A stretch of 64,000 nt of DNA from Prochlorococcus sp. MIT 1223 (GTDB taxonomy: Bacteria > Cyanobacteriota > Cyanobacteriia > PCC-6307 > Cyanobiaceae). The position numbers were made by a program, and so were the translations under genes. Position 1 is the stretch's first letter; each line of letters begins with the position of its first letter. Shown here one piece after another: positions 55,841 through 63,094 of this stretch. The stretch covers positions 372,001 through 436,000 of the forward strand of contig NZ_CP139303.1 in NCBI RefSeq assembly GCF_034092465.1, given 5' to 3'. Under the pieces are notes generated by a model. That model did not search any database. It had not been told where the DNA came from and worked only from the letters and a program-made list of their open reading frames with translations.

Positions 55841-57211
55841 TTGAATAATTTATTTGATATAATTCAATTCAAGAAAAACACCTATAGATATTTTATATCA
55901 TTATTATTTATATGGGCTCTAGTTCTCATAATTGGGTTCATCTTAAGGGAGCAAGATTTTGAATACCTATGCCAGTCTTTTAAAACATGTAAGGTACAAA
56001 TTGATGCGGCCCTAAGCTTAAGTGAAGGAAATCCTTTTAGGATGTTTGGATTTTGGAAATGGTTTACATATAATACAGAAACAATATATCTAAGTTTTCC
56101 AATATTTGCATATCTACCAACCACATTATTAATAAAATTTTTTGGCGCTGATTCAATTTATTTCTCAAGAGAAATACTTACTTATTCACAGATTGGAATA
56201 ACTGGTACGCTTTTATATTTATTATTAAATACATCTCGAGCAAAAGATATACAAACTTCTTTAAGTACTACTGGTAGCCTTGGCATAGGACCAAGTATAT
56301 TATTAATAACTAACCCAGCCATACTATCTATTCTAGTTGAACCAGTGTGGGACGAATTTTTCATTACAACGTCACTTTTGGGATTACTACTGATATACAA
56401 TTCAAGATTTAAAATTCTAGGTGAAGGAATACTTACTTTTGCTTTTATAAATTATTTTCCAGGGGCCTTGGCATATATAGCGGCTAAATTTCTTTCTTTC
56501 CTTAGAAAGGGAAGATATCTTCTCTCTAGAAATATAACTCTTAAAGATATTTTTGTTTTTATATCTAGCAATTTGAAAACTCAACTCAAGACTACTTCGA
56601 TTTTACGATCGGCCTATTTAGGAATAGGAATATATACAATATGGAGATTAATAACTTACTTTATACTTAATATGAATGAAATACCCGTTGGAGGAAGTTC
56701 CCTAATTACTAGAATTGGAATAGATCCTAATGATGACTTCTATGGTGGGGTAATAAATTTTGCACGAGTTCTTATACCCATACCAAACAAAGATTATTTT
56801 CAGAATTTTAATTCTGATCTATCGTCGGCTTGGAAACTGCTAAATCTTTTTACTATAATAATAGAATATCTAACTCTTACAAGTATAGGGATTTTATATG
56901 GGTTAAAGTTATTAAATAAGCGACCCAATGACAAGGCTACTTTTCTCAAAGATATTCCATTAAAAGTTCTTACCTTTTATGGGGTTATCAGTTTATTTCA
57001 AATGATATTACTACCTCAGATGGCAACTGTTCACTTTAGGACGACCGCAAGAATCCTATCTCCTTTTATTAGTATCTCTTTAGCAACATTTGTCTTAAAC
57101 GTCACTAAAAGGTTTATATCAAATAAGAATAATGCTTACGCTGTTTATATTTCTATTCTATGGTTAATCACAATAGACCAGATTAGAATTTTCATGACTT
57201 TATATTTATAG
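55841..57211 (+). CDS. Multi-pass membrane protein, likely surface-polysaccharide related
   Basis: A 456-residue integral membrane protein with about ten helices. The TTG start (MNNLFDIIQFKKNTYRYF) is needed; no ATG occurs until later. A long loop with FPIFAYLPTTLLIKFFG and ILVEPVWDEFFITTS looks like a GT-C/DUF2029-type glycosyltransferase or a polymerase, but no DxD-type motif is certain. Its place upstream of the nucleotide-sugar genes suggests a role in assembling the same glycan. Confidence 0.6.
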   Translation: MNNLFDIIQFKKNTYRYFISLLFIWALVLIIGFILREQDFEYLCQSFKTCKVQIDAALSLSEGNPFRMFGFWKWFTYNTETIYLSFPIFAYLPTTLLIKFFGADSIYFSREILTYSQIGITGTLLYLLLNTSRAKDIQTSLSTTGSLGIGPSILLITNPAILSILVEPVWDEFFITTSLLGLLLIYNSRFKILGEGILTFAFINYFPGALAYIAAKFLSFLRKGRYLLSRNITLKDIFVFISSNLKTQLKTTSILRSAYLGIGIYTIWRLITYFILNMNEIPVGGSSLITRIGIDPNDDFYGGVINFARVLIPIPNKDYFQNFNSDLSSAWKLLNLFTIIIEYLTLTSIGILYGLKLLNKRPNDKATFLKDIPLKVLTFYGVISLFQMILLPQMATVHFRTTARILSPFISISLATFVLNVTKRFISNKNNAYAVYISILWLITIDQIRIFMTLYL

Positions 57212-57957: not shown

Positions 57958-59160
57958 ATGGACATAGAAAAAATTTCCTATGCCAAAACCGTTTATGGAC
58001 AAGAAGAAATTAATGCGGTAATAAAATGCCTGAATGAATCAACTCAAATGGGAAGATATTCAAGAGAATTCGAAAAGAAGGTAGCAAAATTATTTAGCAA
58101 GAAAAACTGTGCATACGTAAACTCAGGCTCGTCGGCATTGTTTTTAGGTATAGAGGCACTAAATTTCCCAAAAGGCAGTGAAGTTATAACTCCAGCTTTG
58201 ACATTCTCAACAACAGTAGGATGCTTAGTTAAGAATAATCTTATCCCAAGCTTTGTTGATGTAGAACCGTTAAGCTATTGCATTGATCCAAATAAGATTG
58301 AGGAGCTAATTAATAGCAATACAGTAGCCATATTAGCTCCAAATTTGTTGGGTAATATATGCGACTGGCCCAAGATTAGGGAAATTGCAAATAAACATAA
58401 TTTAGTCGTAATAGAGGATAGTGCAGACACTATTGGCGCAAAAATAAATAATATCAAGACAGGAGAATATACCGATATGTCCATAACTAGTTTCTATGGA
58501 TCTCATATAATAAATTGTGCTGGCAATGGGGGTGCACTATCTGTAAATGATGATTCAGTTTTTACAAGAGTTAAATTATTGCGATCATGGGGAAGAAGCT
58601 CATCATTATTTGATGAAAATAGTGAATCTATTGAAAATAGATTTAATGTTAATTTAGATGGAATTGAATATGATGCGAAGTTTGTTTTTGAAACTATTGG
58701 CTATAATCTAGAAGGCAGTGAAATAGGAGCAGCCTTTGGTTTAGAACAATTAAAAAAATTATCTACTAATATTCAGACAAGAAGGATAAACTTTGATAAA
58801 CAGCAACGTTTCTTTTCTAGATATGATAGTTATTTCTCAACTCCAGAAGAACTTAAAGGTTCTGAAACAGGTTGGCTTGCATACCCATTACTTATAAAAG
58901 AAAAGGCTCCATTTTCGCGGAAGGAATTTCAAATATATCTAGAACAACAGCAAATACAAACAAGAGTGATTTTTACAGGGAATATATTAAGACAGCCCAT
59001 GTGTAAGAATATTGTTAAGAGTCTAAATCAAAAAGGTTATAAGAACTCAGATAATATAATGAAGAATGGTGTCCTCTTGCCTCTGCATCACGGAATGTCT
59101 GAAAGTATGTTTAATAGATTACATCAAACAATAGAAGATTTTCTTAGCGTTAGAAAATAA
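57958..59160 (+). CDS. DegT-family PMP-dependent 3-dehydratase (RfbH/ColD-like, no Fe-S ligands)
   Basis: A fold-type I aminotransferase family protein of 400 residues. Typical motifs are NSGSSALFLG, VITPALTFSTT and VIEDSADTIGA with Asp154. The PLP-lysine position is His183 in SFYGSHIINCAGNGG, the mark of 3-deoxygenating dehydratases (E1/RfbH and ColD). Canonical RfbH carries Cys ligands after RDWGRD; here the region reads RSWGRSSSLFDEN with none. Thus it is probably a ColD-like, glutamate-dependent enzyme acting on a CDP- or GDP-4-keto-6-deoxyhexose. rfbF and rfbG follow, favouring a CDP sugar. Confidence 0.8.
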   Translation: MDIEKISYAKTVYGQEEINAVIKCLNESTQMGRYSREFEKKVAKLFSKKNCAYVNSGSSALFLGIEALNFPKGSEVITPALTFSTTVGCLVKNNLIPSFVDVEPLSYCIDPNKIEELINSNTVAILAPNLLGNICDWPKIREIANKHNLVVIEDSADTIGAKINNIKTGEYTDMSITSFYGSHIINCAGNGGALSVNDDSVFTRVKLLRSWGRSSSLFDENSESIENRFNVNLDGIEYDAKFVFETIGYNLEGSEIGAAFGLEQLKKLSTNIQTRRINFDKQQRFFSRYDSYFSTPEELKGSETGWLAYPLLIKEKAPFSRKEFQIYLEQQQIQTRVIFTGNILRQPMCKNIVKSLNQKGYKNSDNIMKNGVLLPLHHGMSESMFNRLHQTIEDFLSVRK

Positions 59161-59234: not shown

Positions 59235-60005
59235 TTGAAGGCTGTAATCTTAGCTGGAGGCTTAGGAACAAGACTAAGTGAAGAAACTCACTTAAAGCCA
59301 AAGCCTATGATTGAAATAGGAGGGAGACCTATCCTTTGGCATATAATGAAAATATATAGTTTTCATGGAATTAATGATTTTATAATATGTTGTGGCTATA
59401 AAGGTTATCAAATTAAGCAATATTTTTCTAACTATTGGCTCCATATGAATGATATTACTTTTCATATGGATTTAGGGGATATTGAAGTTCATCAAAAAAA
59501 AGTTGAGCCATGGAAAGTAACACTAATCGATACAGGTGAATCAACTATGACTGGAGGAAGACTGAAAAGAATATCAAGCTTTCTAGAAGGTGATGATTTC
59601 TGCATGACTTATGGTGATGGTTTATCTGATGTCAATATTAGTAAATTAATTAAATTTCATTTAACACATAAATTATCAGCCACTATCACTTCTGTTCGCC
59701 CTCAAGCAAGGTTTGGAGCTTTAGAGGTTGGGAAAGATGGGATAGTCAATAGATTCAATGAAAAGCCTATAAGTGAAGGTGGAAGAATAAATGGCGGTTT
59801 TTTTGTTCTCAATCCTAGAGTTATAAATGAGATTGACTCTGATAATACAATTTGGGAACAAGATCCTCTTTGTCGGTTAGTAAAAAGCAAGCAACTTAAA
59901 GCATATAATCATGATGGTTTTTGGCATCCAATGGATACATTAAGAGATAAAATTTACCTAAACACTTTGTGGAATGATAATCAAGCTCCCTGGAAAGTAT
60001 GGTGA
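59235..60005 (+). CDS. rfbF: Glucose-1-phosphate cytidylyltransferase
   Basis: Makes CDP-glucose from CTP and glucose-1-phosphate, opening the CDP-deoxysugar pathway. The 256-residue enzyme starts at TTG. Family hallmarks are MKAVILAGGLGTRLSEET, KPKPMIEIGGRPILWHIMK, FMTYGDGLSDVN-like (DDFCMTYGDGLSDVNI) and GFWHPMDTLRDK. The last bases overlap the rfbG start by seven bases, so the pair is translationally coupled. RfbF proteins normally form hexamers. Confidence 0.95.
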   Translation: MKAVILAGGLGTRLSEETHLKPKPMIEIGGRPILWHIMKIYSFHGINDFIICCGYKGYQIKQYFSNYWLHMNDITFHMDLGDIEVHQKKVEPWKVTLIDTGESTMTGGRLKRISSFLEGDDFCMTYGDGLSDVNISKLIKFHLTHKLSATITSVRPQARFGALEVGKDGIVNRFNEKPISEGGRINGGFFVLNPRVINEIDSDNTIWEQDPLCRLVKSKQLKAYNHDGFWHPMDTLRDKIYLNTLWNDNQAPWKVW

Positions 60006-61081
60006 ATATTAATTTTGGTTTTTGGAAAGATAAAAGAGTCCTTATTACAGGCCATACTGGTTTTAAAGGAACTTGGTTGCTAATTTGGCTTATTCAACTA
60101 CAAGCTGATGTTTACGGTATATCTATCTCTGACGGTCAAGATGGAAACTTATATAATTCTGTAAAAAACTCTATAAAAAATAAATTCATTAGTAGGCATA
60201 TAGATATAAGAAATTCAGAGAAACTTTTTAAAGCTGTTAAAGAGATAAAGCCAGATGTGATAATTCATTTAGCTGCTCAAGCACTTGTAAAAGAAAGCTA
60301 TAAAGATCCGATTTCAACATGGTCAACAAATGTTATGGGTACAATAAATTTACTAGAATCATTGCATAATTTAAACTCACAATGCTCTGTTGTATGTGTC
60401 ACAACTGATAAGGTCTATGAAAATAAAAATTGGTGTTATGGATACAGAGAAAATGATTCTCTTGGTGGAATAGATCCCTACAGTGCTAGTAAAGCAGCTA
60501 CAGAAATAGCTGTAAATAGCTGGAGAAATAGTTTCTGTGGCGAAAAGAATTATCAAAAATCTAATCTAGGAATAGCTACTGCTAGGGTTGGTAATGCTAT
60601 AGGCGGTGGAGATTGGTCTAAAGACAGACTAGTTCCAGATTGTATAAGAGCACTAATTGAGAATGAGTCAATCAAAATAAGATATCCAAATGCAGTTAGA
60701 CCATGGCAATTTGTACTTGAACCTTTAGTTGGATATCTTTTATTAGCAGAAAAACTTTCTGAGTCAACATTTACTTATTCGACTGAGTATAATTTCGGGC
60801 CGAATGATGAAAGTAATAAGACAGTTCTAGAAGTAGTTAAAAAAATAGCTTATCTTTGGGGTGGAGAATATCTGATCGAAAAAGAATTAAATAGTTATCA
60901 TGAAGAAAATCTATTAAAATTAGATATCTATAAAGCAAAGAATTTATTAGGTTGGTATCCAAAGTGGGGATTTGATAAATCTATAAGTCAAACCATTAGT
61001 TGGTATCGAAATATAGCGTTAGGTTCAGAACCTTATCAAGAGTGCCTGCAAAATATAAAAATATTTGAAAGTAAGAATTAA
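59999..61081 (+). CDS. rfbG: CDP-glucose 4,6-dehydratase
   Basis: Extended SDR enzyme converting CDP-glucose to CDP-4-keto-6-deoxyglucose. The NAD motif is ITGHTGFKGTW (residues 17-27). The active site has VTTDKVY (Thr136-Asp137-Lys138) and YSASKAATE with Tyr161 and Lys165. Length 360 residues is normal. It overlaps rfbF and precedes the reductase/epimerase by 57 bases. The product should feed the dehydratase at 57958. Confidence 0.95.
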   Translation: MVNINFGFWKDKRVLITGHTGFKGTWLLIWLIQLQADVYGISISDGQDGNLYNSVKNSIKNKFISRHIDIRNSEKLFKAVKEIKPDVIIHLAAQALVKESYKDPISTWSTNVMGTINLLESLHNLNSQCSVVCVTTDKVYENKNWCYGYRENDSLGGIDPYSASKAATEIAVNSWRNSFCGEKNYQKSNLGIATARVGNAIGGGDWSKDRLVPDCIRALIENESIKIRYPNAVRPWQFVLEPLVGYLLLAEKLSESTFTYSTEYNFGPNDESNKTVLEVVKKIAYLWGGEYLIEKELNSYHEENLLKLDIYKAKNLLGWYPKWGFDKSISQTISWYRNIALGSEPYQECLQNIKIFESKN

Positions 61082-61138: not shown

Positions 61139-61999
61139 ATGAAACTATTTATAACAGGTGCAAATGGAAGTATAGGCAGCGAATTATGTAAACTAAGTCA
61201 CTCAAAGAATATTTATAATAAAGTTTTTATTCGTAGAAATAGCCAATGTAATCACAATTACTATCAAGAGAAGGTTGTTCTTAATGATATATCAGATGTT
61301 AATGAAAATGAATTCAAGAATATTGATGTTTTGGTTCACTTGGCAGCTGTTGGAGTAGATCAATCAAAGTATTATGAACCCAAAGATGTTTTCAACTTTA
61401 ACGTATTTAAATCGACAGAATTAATATTAAAGGCAATTAATTCAGGAATTAAAAAATTTATAATAATAGGTAGTTGTACCGAATATGGAAAGACTGCAGA
61501 TATGTTAAAAGAAAATATTTCGGTAATGGATACATTATTACCAACAAGTATTTATTCGGCCAGCAAGGCTGCCTTTAGCTCTTCGTGCATAGGATTAGCC
61601 TATTCGTATGGAGTTTCAATCTATATACTTAGACCATTTAATGTTTATGGTGAGACTGAGGCAAGTAGCAGGCTATATACAAGTTTAATTAATAAGGCTG
61701 AATGTGGAGAGGATTTTCATATAACACAAGGGGATCAAATAAAGGATTTTTCTAGTTATTCTGAGACTGCTCAAAGAATTTTTGATGAAATATTAATTAT
61801 AAATGAGTCTAAAGACAGAACAATAAAGATTAAAAATCTTGGCAGCGGGAATCAAATTTCTGTATATGAATTTGCTAAAAAAGTCTGGTTAGAGAAATCT
61901 GCAAAAGGAAAGATAATAAAAGGAGCACTACCGTATAGAAAAAATGAACCAATGAAATGCATACCAGACCTGAAATTAATATTCGAAGACATTGTATAA
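61139..61999 (+). CDS. SDR epimerase/reductase of nucleotide-sugar type
   Basis: An extended SDR protein of 286 residues. The Rossmann motif is ITGANGSIGSEL, the Ser is in IIIGSCTEYG (Ser112), and Tyr139-x3-Lys143 is in YSASKAA. Such enzymes follow RfbH-type dehydratases as CDP-abequose or CDP-paratose synthases (4-keto reductases) or as epimerases. The C-terminal part is short, as in RfbJ. The exact product stereochemistry cannot be read. Confidence 0.75.
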   Translation: MKLFITGANGSIGSELCKLSHSKNIYNKVFIRRNSQCNHNYYQEKVVLNDISDVNENEFKNIDVLVHLAAVGVDQSKYYEPKDVFNFNVFKSTELILKAINSGIKKFIIIGSCTEYGKTADMLKENISVMDTLLPTSIYSASKAAFSSSCIGLAYSYGVSIYILRPFNVYGETEASSRLYTSLINKAECGEDFHITQGDQIKDFSSYSETAQRIFDEILIINESKDRTIKIKNLGSGNQISVYEFAKKVWLEKSAKGKIIKGALPYRKNEPMKCIPDLKLIFEDIV

Positions 62000-62125: not shown

Positions 62126-63094
62126 ATGAAAATGGAAAAAACAATTAACATAGAGTTTGTTATTCCGACCTATAACGAAGAACTTAATATTGATGATTTA
62201 TTTGAACTCTTATTCAGAATAAAGAAAATTATAAATACTAGTTATTTAACCAAAACATTATCTTGGGCAATATTGGTAGCTGATAATGGGAGCACTGACA
62301 ATACTATAGAAAGATTAAATTCTTATAAGGACAAACTCGTTAACTTTAAGCTGCTATCCTTCCATAAAAATTATGGTTACGCCTTTTCCACTTCCTATTT
62401 GCTTCATAAGTCAACAGGAGATATATGCATCCTTATCCCTGCAGATGGACAAATACCTATTGATGTAATTATCAATGGAATAAAGCAATCTATAAATGAT
62501 TTTAGGAATGTTTTATTTGTGAGGTCCCCAGATACACGATCTATGCATATTGGAATAAATATAGTAAATTTATTCAAAAGACTATTCTATTTTATAGTTA
62601 ATAGATTCAACGATGATTCACCGATAGGATATTTCGGTATGGGAGTATATCTTGGACATTCACTTCTTCCTATTAGGCAAATGCCAAGAGGTTTTATACC
62701 TTTTCAGAATAGATCTATCTTACCTAAAATTTTAAGACAATATAATTTGTTGACATTTAAAGAGTTAGATAGGCGAAAAGGTAAAAGCGGATTTAATTTA
62801 TCAAATTATATTTATGAAGCAATTTCAATAATTGCAAGATCTGAATATATCAGTAGATATGGGGTTCAATTAATAATCTCATTAATATTCTTGCTGTTGC
62901 TAATCGTAAGCTCAACAGTATTTCTAATAAAACTATTAATTCCAGCCGCTATTATTCCAGGATTTGCTACCATTATACTAGTTGTATTGACATCTACAAT
63001 GTTAAATGTTTTAAGTATTTATTTATTTGCTATAAGAATAGAGAAGATTCTATTAATGCCTTCCAATAATGAGCCTATAATTAAAGATATATAG
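62126..63094 (+). CDS. GT2-family membrane glycosyltransferase
   Basis: A 322-residue transferase with the GT-A start EFVIPTYNEELNIDDL, then VADNGSTDNT and IPADGQIPIDV (in place of the DxD). Two C-terminal helices (about 240-265 and 270-300, LIISLIFLLLLIVSS and IPGFATIILVVLTST) resemble the DPM1/GtrB/ArnC class, which moves sugar to undecaprenyl phosphate. It may attach the CDP-derived deoxysugar to the lipid carrier. Last gene of the polysaccharide cluster. Confidence 0.85.
   Translation: MKMEKTINIEFVIPTYNEELNIDDLFELLFRIKKIINTSYLTKTLSWAILVADNGSTDNTIERLNSYKDKLVNFKLLSFHKNYGYAFSTSYLLHKSTGDICILIPADGQIPIDVIINGIKQSINDFRNVLFVRSPDTRSMHIGINIVNLFKRLFYFIVNRFNDDSPIGYFGMGVYLGHSLLPIRQMPRGFIPFQNRSILPKILRQYNLLTFKELDRRKGKSGFNLSNYIYEAISIIARSEYISRYGVQLIISLIFLLLLIVSSTVFLIKLLIPAAIIPGFATIILVVLTSTMLNVLSIYLFAIRIEKILLMPSNNEPIIKDI

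Follow-up and report, generated by a model that had tools for sequence, protein, structure and literature searches.

A predicted iron-sulfur-free 3-dehydratase beside the CDP-glucose genes of Prochlorococcus, and the bacterial branch to which it belongs

Introduction

The standard account assigns the C3 deoxygenation of CDP-sugars to the iron-sulfur pair E1/E3 and that of GDP-sugars to the simpler ColD route. This account may be brought into question by a gene of Prochlorococcus sp. MIT 1223, which adjoins genes of CDP-glucose metabolism and encodes, in the place of RfbH, an E1-like protein without the iron-sulfur ligands. Which reaction is to be expected of such a protein, on which nucleotide sugar it would act, and how far the combination extends beyond this locus are the questions considered here. 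The window analyzed comprises 64,000 nucleotides (contig NZ_CP139303.1, positions 372,001 to 436,000), and the coordinates below refer to it unless a homologous locus is named.

The three reference enzymes E1, ColD, and SpnQ share a common start, consisting of the formation of a pyridoxamine phosphate (PMP) Schiff base, proton abstraction by a histidine, and loss of the C3 hydroxyl (PMC8987622). E1 and SpnQ each contain a [2Fe-2S] cluster and depend on a reductase, whereas ColD has neither; its intermediate is hydrolyzed, and PMP is regenerated from glutamate (PMC8987622). The C3-dehydratases of Campylobacter GDP-heptose are ColD-like, with 2-oxoglutarate formed and solvent oxygen introduced into C4 (PMC10440746), and for GDP sugars the route through PLP and glutamate is an established one (PMC8987622, PMC10440746).

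The Gene, the Protein, and Its Fold

The gene (57958..59160, + strand) begins with ATG and forms a single open frame of 400 residues within a complete genome of 1.80 Mb. Its product, a predicted Fe-S-free nucleotide-sugar 3-dehydratase, has the DegT/DnrJ/EryC1/StrS fold (PF01041, E-value 2.1e-80; 271.1 bits against a gathering threshold of 19.8), and its nearest relatives in named records include Prochlorococcus. Among the solved relatives, E1 (3bcx) ranks first by sequence (E-value 2.8e-54), followed by a sugar aminotransferase, ColD, and GDP-perosamine synthase. The AlphaFold model (pLDDT 94.1, pTM 0.92) is likewise nearest to E1 in the fold comparison (Z 50.4, rmsd 2.1 Å, 381 residues), with GDP-perosamine synthase and ColD behind at Z of about 48, a gap too small to over-read. 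The protein scores 301.7 bits with the E1/RfbH equivalog model NF011936, below its cut-off of 423 bits, and the scanned members of its branch reach 271–302 bits, as against 673–784 bits for RfbH proteins with the cluster.

Active Site and Iron-Sulfur Ligand Positions

The active site was compared in a main alignment of 51 sequences, comprising the dehydratase, 25 members of its branch, 3 dTDP-associated homologs, 7 RfbH proteins with the cluster, 5 ColD-type, 3 phage, and 7 Lys-type sequences. The earlier note on this DNA had placed a histidine where aminotransferases hold the PLP lysine, and the alignment bears this out: His183 (codon 58504..58506, + strand), within the stretch 177-TSFYGSHIINCAGNGG-192, falls in the column of E1 H220, ColD H188, and the aminotransferase lysine, the last represented also by five paralogs from the same genome. 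Alignments of 37 and of 40 homologs show no variation at this residue, and a broader motif scan found the histidine in each of 85 homologous ORFs. A hidden lysine or a shifted alignment was ruled out by the position of His183 at the canonical DegT spacing after SFY.

Further residues of the dehydratase signature are retained. The segment Asp154-Ser-Ala-Asp157 (58417..58428, + strand) corresponds to the E1 motif EDCCD minus its cysteine, and Asp157 matches E1 D194, in a column that is acidic in the dehydratases and occupied by Gln or His in the Lys-type enzymes compared; Tyr180 corresponds to E1 Y217. The histidine at the lysine position, the acidic residue at 194, the aromatic residue at 217, and a tryptophan just before E1 position 345 are common to the branch and E1, mostly also to ColD, and are not found in the Lys-type paralogs.

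The [2Fe-2S] ligands of Salmonella RfbH, C193, C251, C253, and C261, follow the pattern C-x57-C-x-C-x7-C, and at these four positions the dehydratase has A156, S215, L217, and I225, in agreement with the reported loss of the motif. The segment RSWGRSSSLF (residues 209–218; 58582..58611, + strand) stands where E1 has RDWGRDCYC, and the last three cluster cysteines are gone from this point on. Every branch homolog inspected is without the ligand motif, and alignment with the ColD and RfbH families, the check that had been proposed, uncovered neither a lysine nor an iron-sulfur motif. The seven cysteines of the dehydratase all lie off the ligand positions, with only C187 kept in most relatives; a substitute cysteine cluster was ruled out, as the branch has no conserved set of four. 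The reading as a decayed RfbH or pseudogene was also rejected, the active-site residues being invariant across the branch.

Relatives of the protein, where annotated in RefSeq, are named aminotransferases, and an aminotransferase is what these product names and the membership in PF01041 would indicate. Such a function is nevertheless highly improbable, as no branch member has the cofactor-position lysine and the scores of the protein with the curated aminotransferase models (PseC, LegC-family, WecE, ArnB-type) are far under every cut-off.

Phylogeny and Distribution of the Branch

In the maximum-likelihood tree, a dehydratase superclade of 44 rows (support 100/100) unites ColD-type enzymes, E1-type enzymes, and the branch of the Prochlorococcus protein, itself supported at 100/100. 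In the best tree E1 is the sister of this branch, with weak support (89/67), and the ColD clade excludes the dehydratase. The alternative topologies, joining the cluster-free branch with ColD or E1 with ColD, are not rejected (p-AU 0.145 and 0.36), and the trees are compatible with a gain of the cluster in E1 as well as with its loss in the branch. Judged from these sequences, the Fe-S-free enzymes are a third, well-supported branch beside E1/RfbH and ColD, a branch that reaches beyond a single genome.

A homolog scan with one genome per species gave, as its best 80 loci, sequences with 52–72% identity from Cyanobacteriota, Pseudomonadota, Bacteroidota, Acidobacteriota, and Gemmatimonadota, and plasmid records extend the branch to Roseobacteraceae, Stappiaceae, and Ensifer. 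The combination of a cluster-free enzyme with CDP-glucose genes, described earlier as unusual, is unusual relative to enteric bacteria and widespread elsewhere.

Two side observations concern picocyanobacteria. Close cluster-free relatives occur in genomes of 1.4–1.8 Mb, and most of the genomes with an RfbH over the cut-off (21 of 151 sampled picocyanobacterial genomes) are larger; an explanation by iron saving is tempting, with small numbers uncorrected for kinship or genome completeness. Two His-type picocyanobacterial relatives under the RfbH cut-off (L153, 6102-7415; L154, 8604-9857) look unlike the three main branches; cluster-like cysteines are kept in the first and gone in the second.

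Gene Neighborhood and Substrate

The dehydratase gene is followed on the + strand by rfbF, rfbG, an SDR gene, and a GT2 gene, in this order, with rfbF and rfbG overlapping. Both of the genes said to follow the dehydratase gene are confirmed by curated models: rfbF (59235..60005) as glucose-1-phosphate cytidylyltransferase (TIGR02623, 436.8 bits, cut-off 300.25) and rfbG (59999..61081) as CDP-glucose 4,6-dehydratase (TIGR02622, 466 bits, cut-off 278.45). The SDR-family NAD(P) enzyme (61139..61999, +, PF01370) is a predicted 4-ketoreductase for a CDP-4-keto-3,6-dideoxy sugar, and the family 2 glycosyltransferase (62126..63094, +, PF00535) is possibly the user of the finished sugar; a GT2 gene lies within 8 kb at 44 of 92 homologous loci (one reference). 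A multi-pass membrane protein (55841..57211, +), with no Pfam or NCBIfam match, precedes the dehydratase gene and is assigned to the cluster by position only. Just past the window, the stretch at about 437675-465000 of contig 1 of the host assembly G000 (L018 from 12675 onward, and L019) looks mobile by eye: some of its ORFs resemble recombinase, ParA, or phage primase genes, several proteins are TPR-like, and L018 yielded no tRNA.

The link with CDP-glucose recurs among the homologs. At 66 of 92 loci, rfbF and/or rfbG lie within 8 kb (both at 60, neither at 26), and among 23 genomes with a locus lacking these genes, 18 hold a CDP-glucose 4,6-dehydratase over the curated cut-off elsewhere, as compared with only one of 14 control genomes. 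In one cyanobacterium (L023, 2179-6884), the dehydratase gene lies beside those of a TPP enzyme and a 509-residue protein that is NeuB-like by eye, and rfbG is found on another contig (G121:C21).

It is conceivable that the linkage with rfbF and rfbG is incidental and that the enzyme acts on a dTDP or GDP sugar. Three homologs with 43–44% identity to the dehydratase (L025-L027; gene region of L025, 11268-14566), which belong to the 26 loci with neither gene nearby, adjoin RmlA/RmlB in near-complete picocyanobacterial genomes in which no CDP-glucose 4,6-dehydratase was found; to judge from this context they probably use a dTDP sugar and are candidate dTDP-4-keto-6-deoxyglucose 3-dehydratases. 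These three form their own deep group in the tree, however, whereas the dehydratase and most of its closer relatives adjoin rfbF/rfbG. A GDP-mannose context (gmd, ColC-type reductase), such as the gmd adjoining the ColD homologs L129-L131 and L133, is not that of the dehydratase locus, which has rfbF and rfbG instead. For the Prochlorococcus enzyme, a dTDP or GDP substrate is therefore regarded as very unlikely, and a CDP sugar as the predicted one.

The Question of a Reductase

The absence of a reductase of the RfbI/AscD type had been offered as an argument for a one-enzyme reaction. The absence itself was confirmed, as no E3-type gene lies near the dehydratase gene, and an E3 query against the complete 1.80 Mb genome returned nothing beyond a ferredoxin-like match of 76 residues and a second match of 56 residues, with no Fer2-FAD-NAD fusion. 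E3 genes are also missing from all 92 homologous loci; Fer2-FAD proteins are encoded in some of 27 homolog genomes, never beside the dehydratase gene, and the picocyanobacterial homolog genomes gave short matches or none. As a diagnostic argument, however, the missing reductase fails. In related picocyanobacteria, none of 11 iron-sulfur RfbH loci (the motif displayed for 10, the eleventh identified by score) has an E3 gene beside it in the stretch read, and on plasmids E3 accompanies two of seven RfbH loci. Since E3 is missing beside iron-sulfur RfbH as well, its absence alone is uninformative and was dropped as positive evidence; the Fe-S-free reading stands because the cysteines are lost, the dehydratase residues are intact, and the two enzymes are exchanged in otherwise matching gene clusters.

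The same observation lends some plausibility to a reductive 3-dehydrase of the E1 kind that has no cluster of its own and takes electrons straight from cellular ferredoxin or a flavin reductase encoded elsewhere, since unlinked electron donors would then serve picocyanobacterial RfbH too. E1, with its reductive chemistry, is the nearest enzyme in sequence and structure, and the genome does contain the short ferredoxin-like and reductase-like matches. We know of no cluster-free reductive 3-dehydrase, however. E1 and SpnQ need their own [2Fe-2S] cluster together with a reductase (PMC8987622), and all four ligands are gone throughout the branch, which makes electron transfer of this type improbable.

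Exchange with Iron-Sulfur RfbH and the Predicted Product

Two loci in the branch contain a further gene that is informative about the product. At the Endozoicomonas locus (L051), rfbF, rfbG, and the gene of the cluster-free dehydratase are followed by a 4-ketoreductase-type gene, whose product has 35–36% identity to the CDP-paratose synthase of Salmonella, and then by the gene of a CDP-tyvelose 2-epimerase with 69% identity to that of Salmonella. In a cyanobacterium (L021, genome G151), the cluster comprises the cluster-free dehydratase, rfbF, rfbG, an SDR, and a tyvelose 2-epimerase (52% to the Salmonella enzyme). A matching five-gene set, with iron-sulfur RfbH as its dehydratase, occurs in other picocyanobacteria (L149, L150, L152), with SDRs 28–35% identical to that of the window and tyvelose 2-epimerases at 52–55%. 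By this correspondence of gene content, one of the two enzymes, the cluster-free one or iron-sulfur RfbH, has taken the place of the other in an otherwise matching pathway. Tyvelose epimerase acts after 3-deoxygenation and 4-reduction, and the cluster-free enzyme should therefore match the output of E1 plus E3, namely CDP-4-keto-3,6-dideoxyglucose.

The SDR of the window shares 35–37% identity with the SDRs encoded after iron-sulfur RfbH in related cyanobacteria (L147, L149), 34% with the one adjoining the tyvelose 2-epimerase in L021, and only 23% with Salmonella CDP-paratose synthase; it is too divergent to be assigned as a paratose or abequose synthase from identity alone. As the window contains no tyvelose epimerase, the end product of its cluster is probably CDP-paratose or CDP-abequose.

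It may also be considered that the dehydratase is of a similar kind and its product is used for a branched sugar, with a C-methyl group or a two-carbon branch, rather than for a simple 3,6-dideoxyhexose. Among the 92 loci, 27 have a C-methyltransferase (PF08421 + PF08484 type) and 11 an acetolactate-synthase/YerE-kind TPP enzyme within 8 kb. Neither gene is present in the window cluster, however, and visual inspection of the ORFs to about 30 kb downstream revealed no such gene, so that such a fate is unlikely here; it would alter the later steps only, with 3-deoxygenation unchanged.

Elsewhere, many Alphaproteobacteria have the order rfbF, rfbG, cluster-free dehydratase, C-methyltransferase (PF08421/PF13489/PF08484), SDR, and GT2 (L014, 8014-14597; L015, L016, L053, L063, L070, L075, L084, and others), a gene content which points to a C-methyl-branched CDP-3,6-dideoxy sugar not yet described. 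Acetolactate-synthase/YerE-kind TPP enzymes are found near cluster-free dehydratases (L022, 13372-15216; L037, L049, L058, L059) and near iron-sulfur dehydratases (L148, L151), and their presence beside both types suggests yersiniose-like branched sugars.

Proposed Reaction

Sequence evidence covers the fold, the His/Asp/Tyr signature of a dehydratase, the loss of the cluster site, the presence of CDP-glucose genes, and the exchange with RfbH; the reaction, the stereochemistry at C4, and the use made of the sugar we infer from it. The protein is probably a reductase-independent CDP-4-keto-6-deoxy-D-glucose 3-dehydratase. RfbF would make CDP-glucose, and RfbG would convert it to CDP-4-keto-6-deoxyglucose. 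In the dehydratase, PMP would condense with the C4 ketone, and His183 would abstract the proton of the PMP methylene as the C3 hydroxyl leaves, giving a 3,4-ene intermediate. For a branch that lacks the cluster, the simplest reading is the ColD route: without electron delivery from an iron-sulfur center, the aldimine would be hydrolyzed to PLP and an enamine, which would tautomerize and shed ammonia to yield CDP-4-keto-3,6-dideoxyglucose. L-Glutamate would then re-aminate PLP to PMP, a recycling step suggested by the lost iron-sulfur site together with the ColD-type precedent. The SDR would reduce C4 to give CDP-paratose, CDP-abequose, or an isomer, and the glycosyltransferase would move the dideoxy sugar into a surface polysaccharide.

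For the lineage as a whole, the analysis favors, with rather less assurance, a cluster-free glutamate-driven deoxygenation of CDP-4-keto-6-deoxyglucose in at least five phyla (of a dTDP sugar in one sub-branch), which would replace E1/E3 and supply precursors for C-methylated and two-carbon-branched dideoxy sugars.

Comparison with Known Enzymes and Significance

The E1/RfbH/AscC enzymes of Yersinia and Salmonella are closest to the dehydratase in sequence and fold and share the catalytic histidine, the equivalents of Asp194 and Tyr217, and the rfbF-rfbG-SDR context; the dehydratase differs in having neither the four [2Fe-2S] ligands nor the N-terminal extension, and no E3 partner was found for it. 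With ColD, the GDP-4-keto-6-deoxymannose 3-dehydratase of the colitose pathway, and with the Campylobacter GDP-heptose C3-dehydratases, it shares the catalytic histidine and the lack of iron-sulfur ligands, but it belongs to a separate branch, with 28–29% identity to ColD and a CDP rather than GDP context; the Glu and Phe of the ColD-type rows, which keep one cysteine (column 193), are replaced in it by Asp and Tyr. Of the earlier proposal of a ColD-like enzyme acting on a CDP sugar, the His-type, Fe-S-free 3-dehydratase and the CDP substrate are upheld by rfbF/rfbG and the two tyvelose 2-epimerase loci, while the enzyme, outside the ColD clade in the best tree, is probably not itself a ColD. 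PMP- and His-dependent C3 deoxygenation is also carried out by SpnQ, the dTDP-4-keto-2,6-dideoxyglucose 3-dehydrase (PMC8987622), which differs by its iron-sulfur cluster and its dTDP 2,6-dideoxy sugar substrate. A literature search, with most subscription papers outside its reach, found no characterized member of the branch and no cluster-free CDP-sugar 3-dehydratase; neither the reaction type nor the fold is new, and the combination and the branch appear to be undescribed.

If the reading is correct, the cluster-free CDP branch would uncouple nucleotide from mechanism, related cyanobacteria would provide a naturally occurring exchange of two mechanisms within one pathway, and many database entries named aminotransferases would need correction. 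One published effort to produce CDP-tyvelose by way of recombinant E1/E3 was unsuccessful, and dysfunctional clusters were the cause suspected by its authors (PMC7851689); this difficulty would not arise with a single enzyme driven by glutamate.

Among the remaining His-type sequences, an RfbH-type protein of Streptomyces that has the cysteines (L125) groups with E1, outside the cluster-free branch. Nucleotide-sugar 3-dehydratases are also encoded by phages, namely cyanophage S-H68 (L126, 7863-9158), cyanophage ACG-2014f (L127, 3890-5083), and an uncultured large phage (L128); two of them carry the E1 iron-sulfur cysteines, and one is ColD-like and adjoins a GDP-mannose 4,6-dehydratase.
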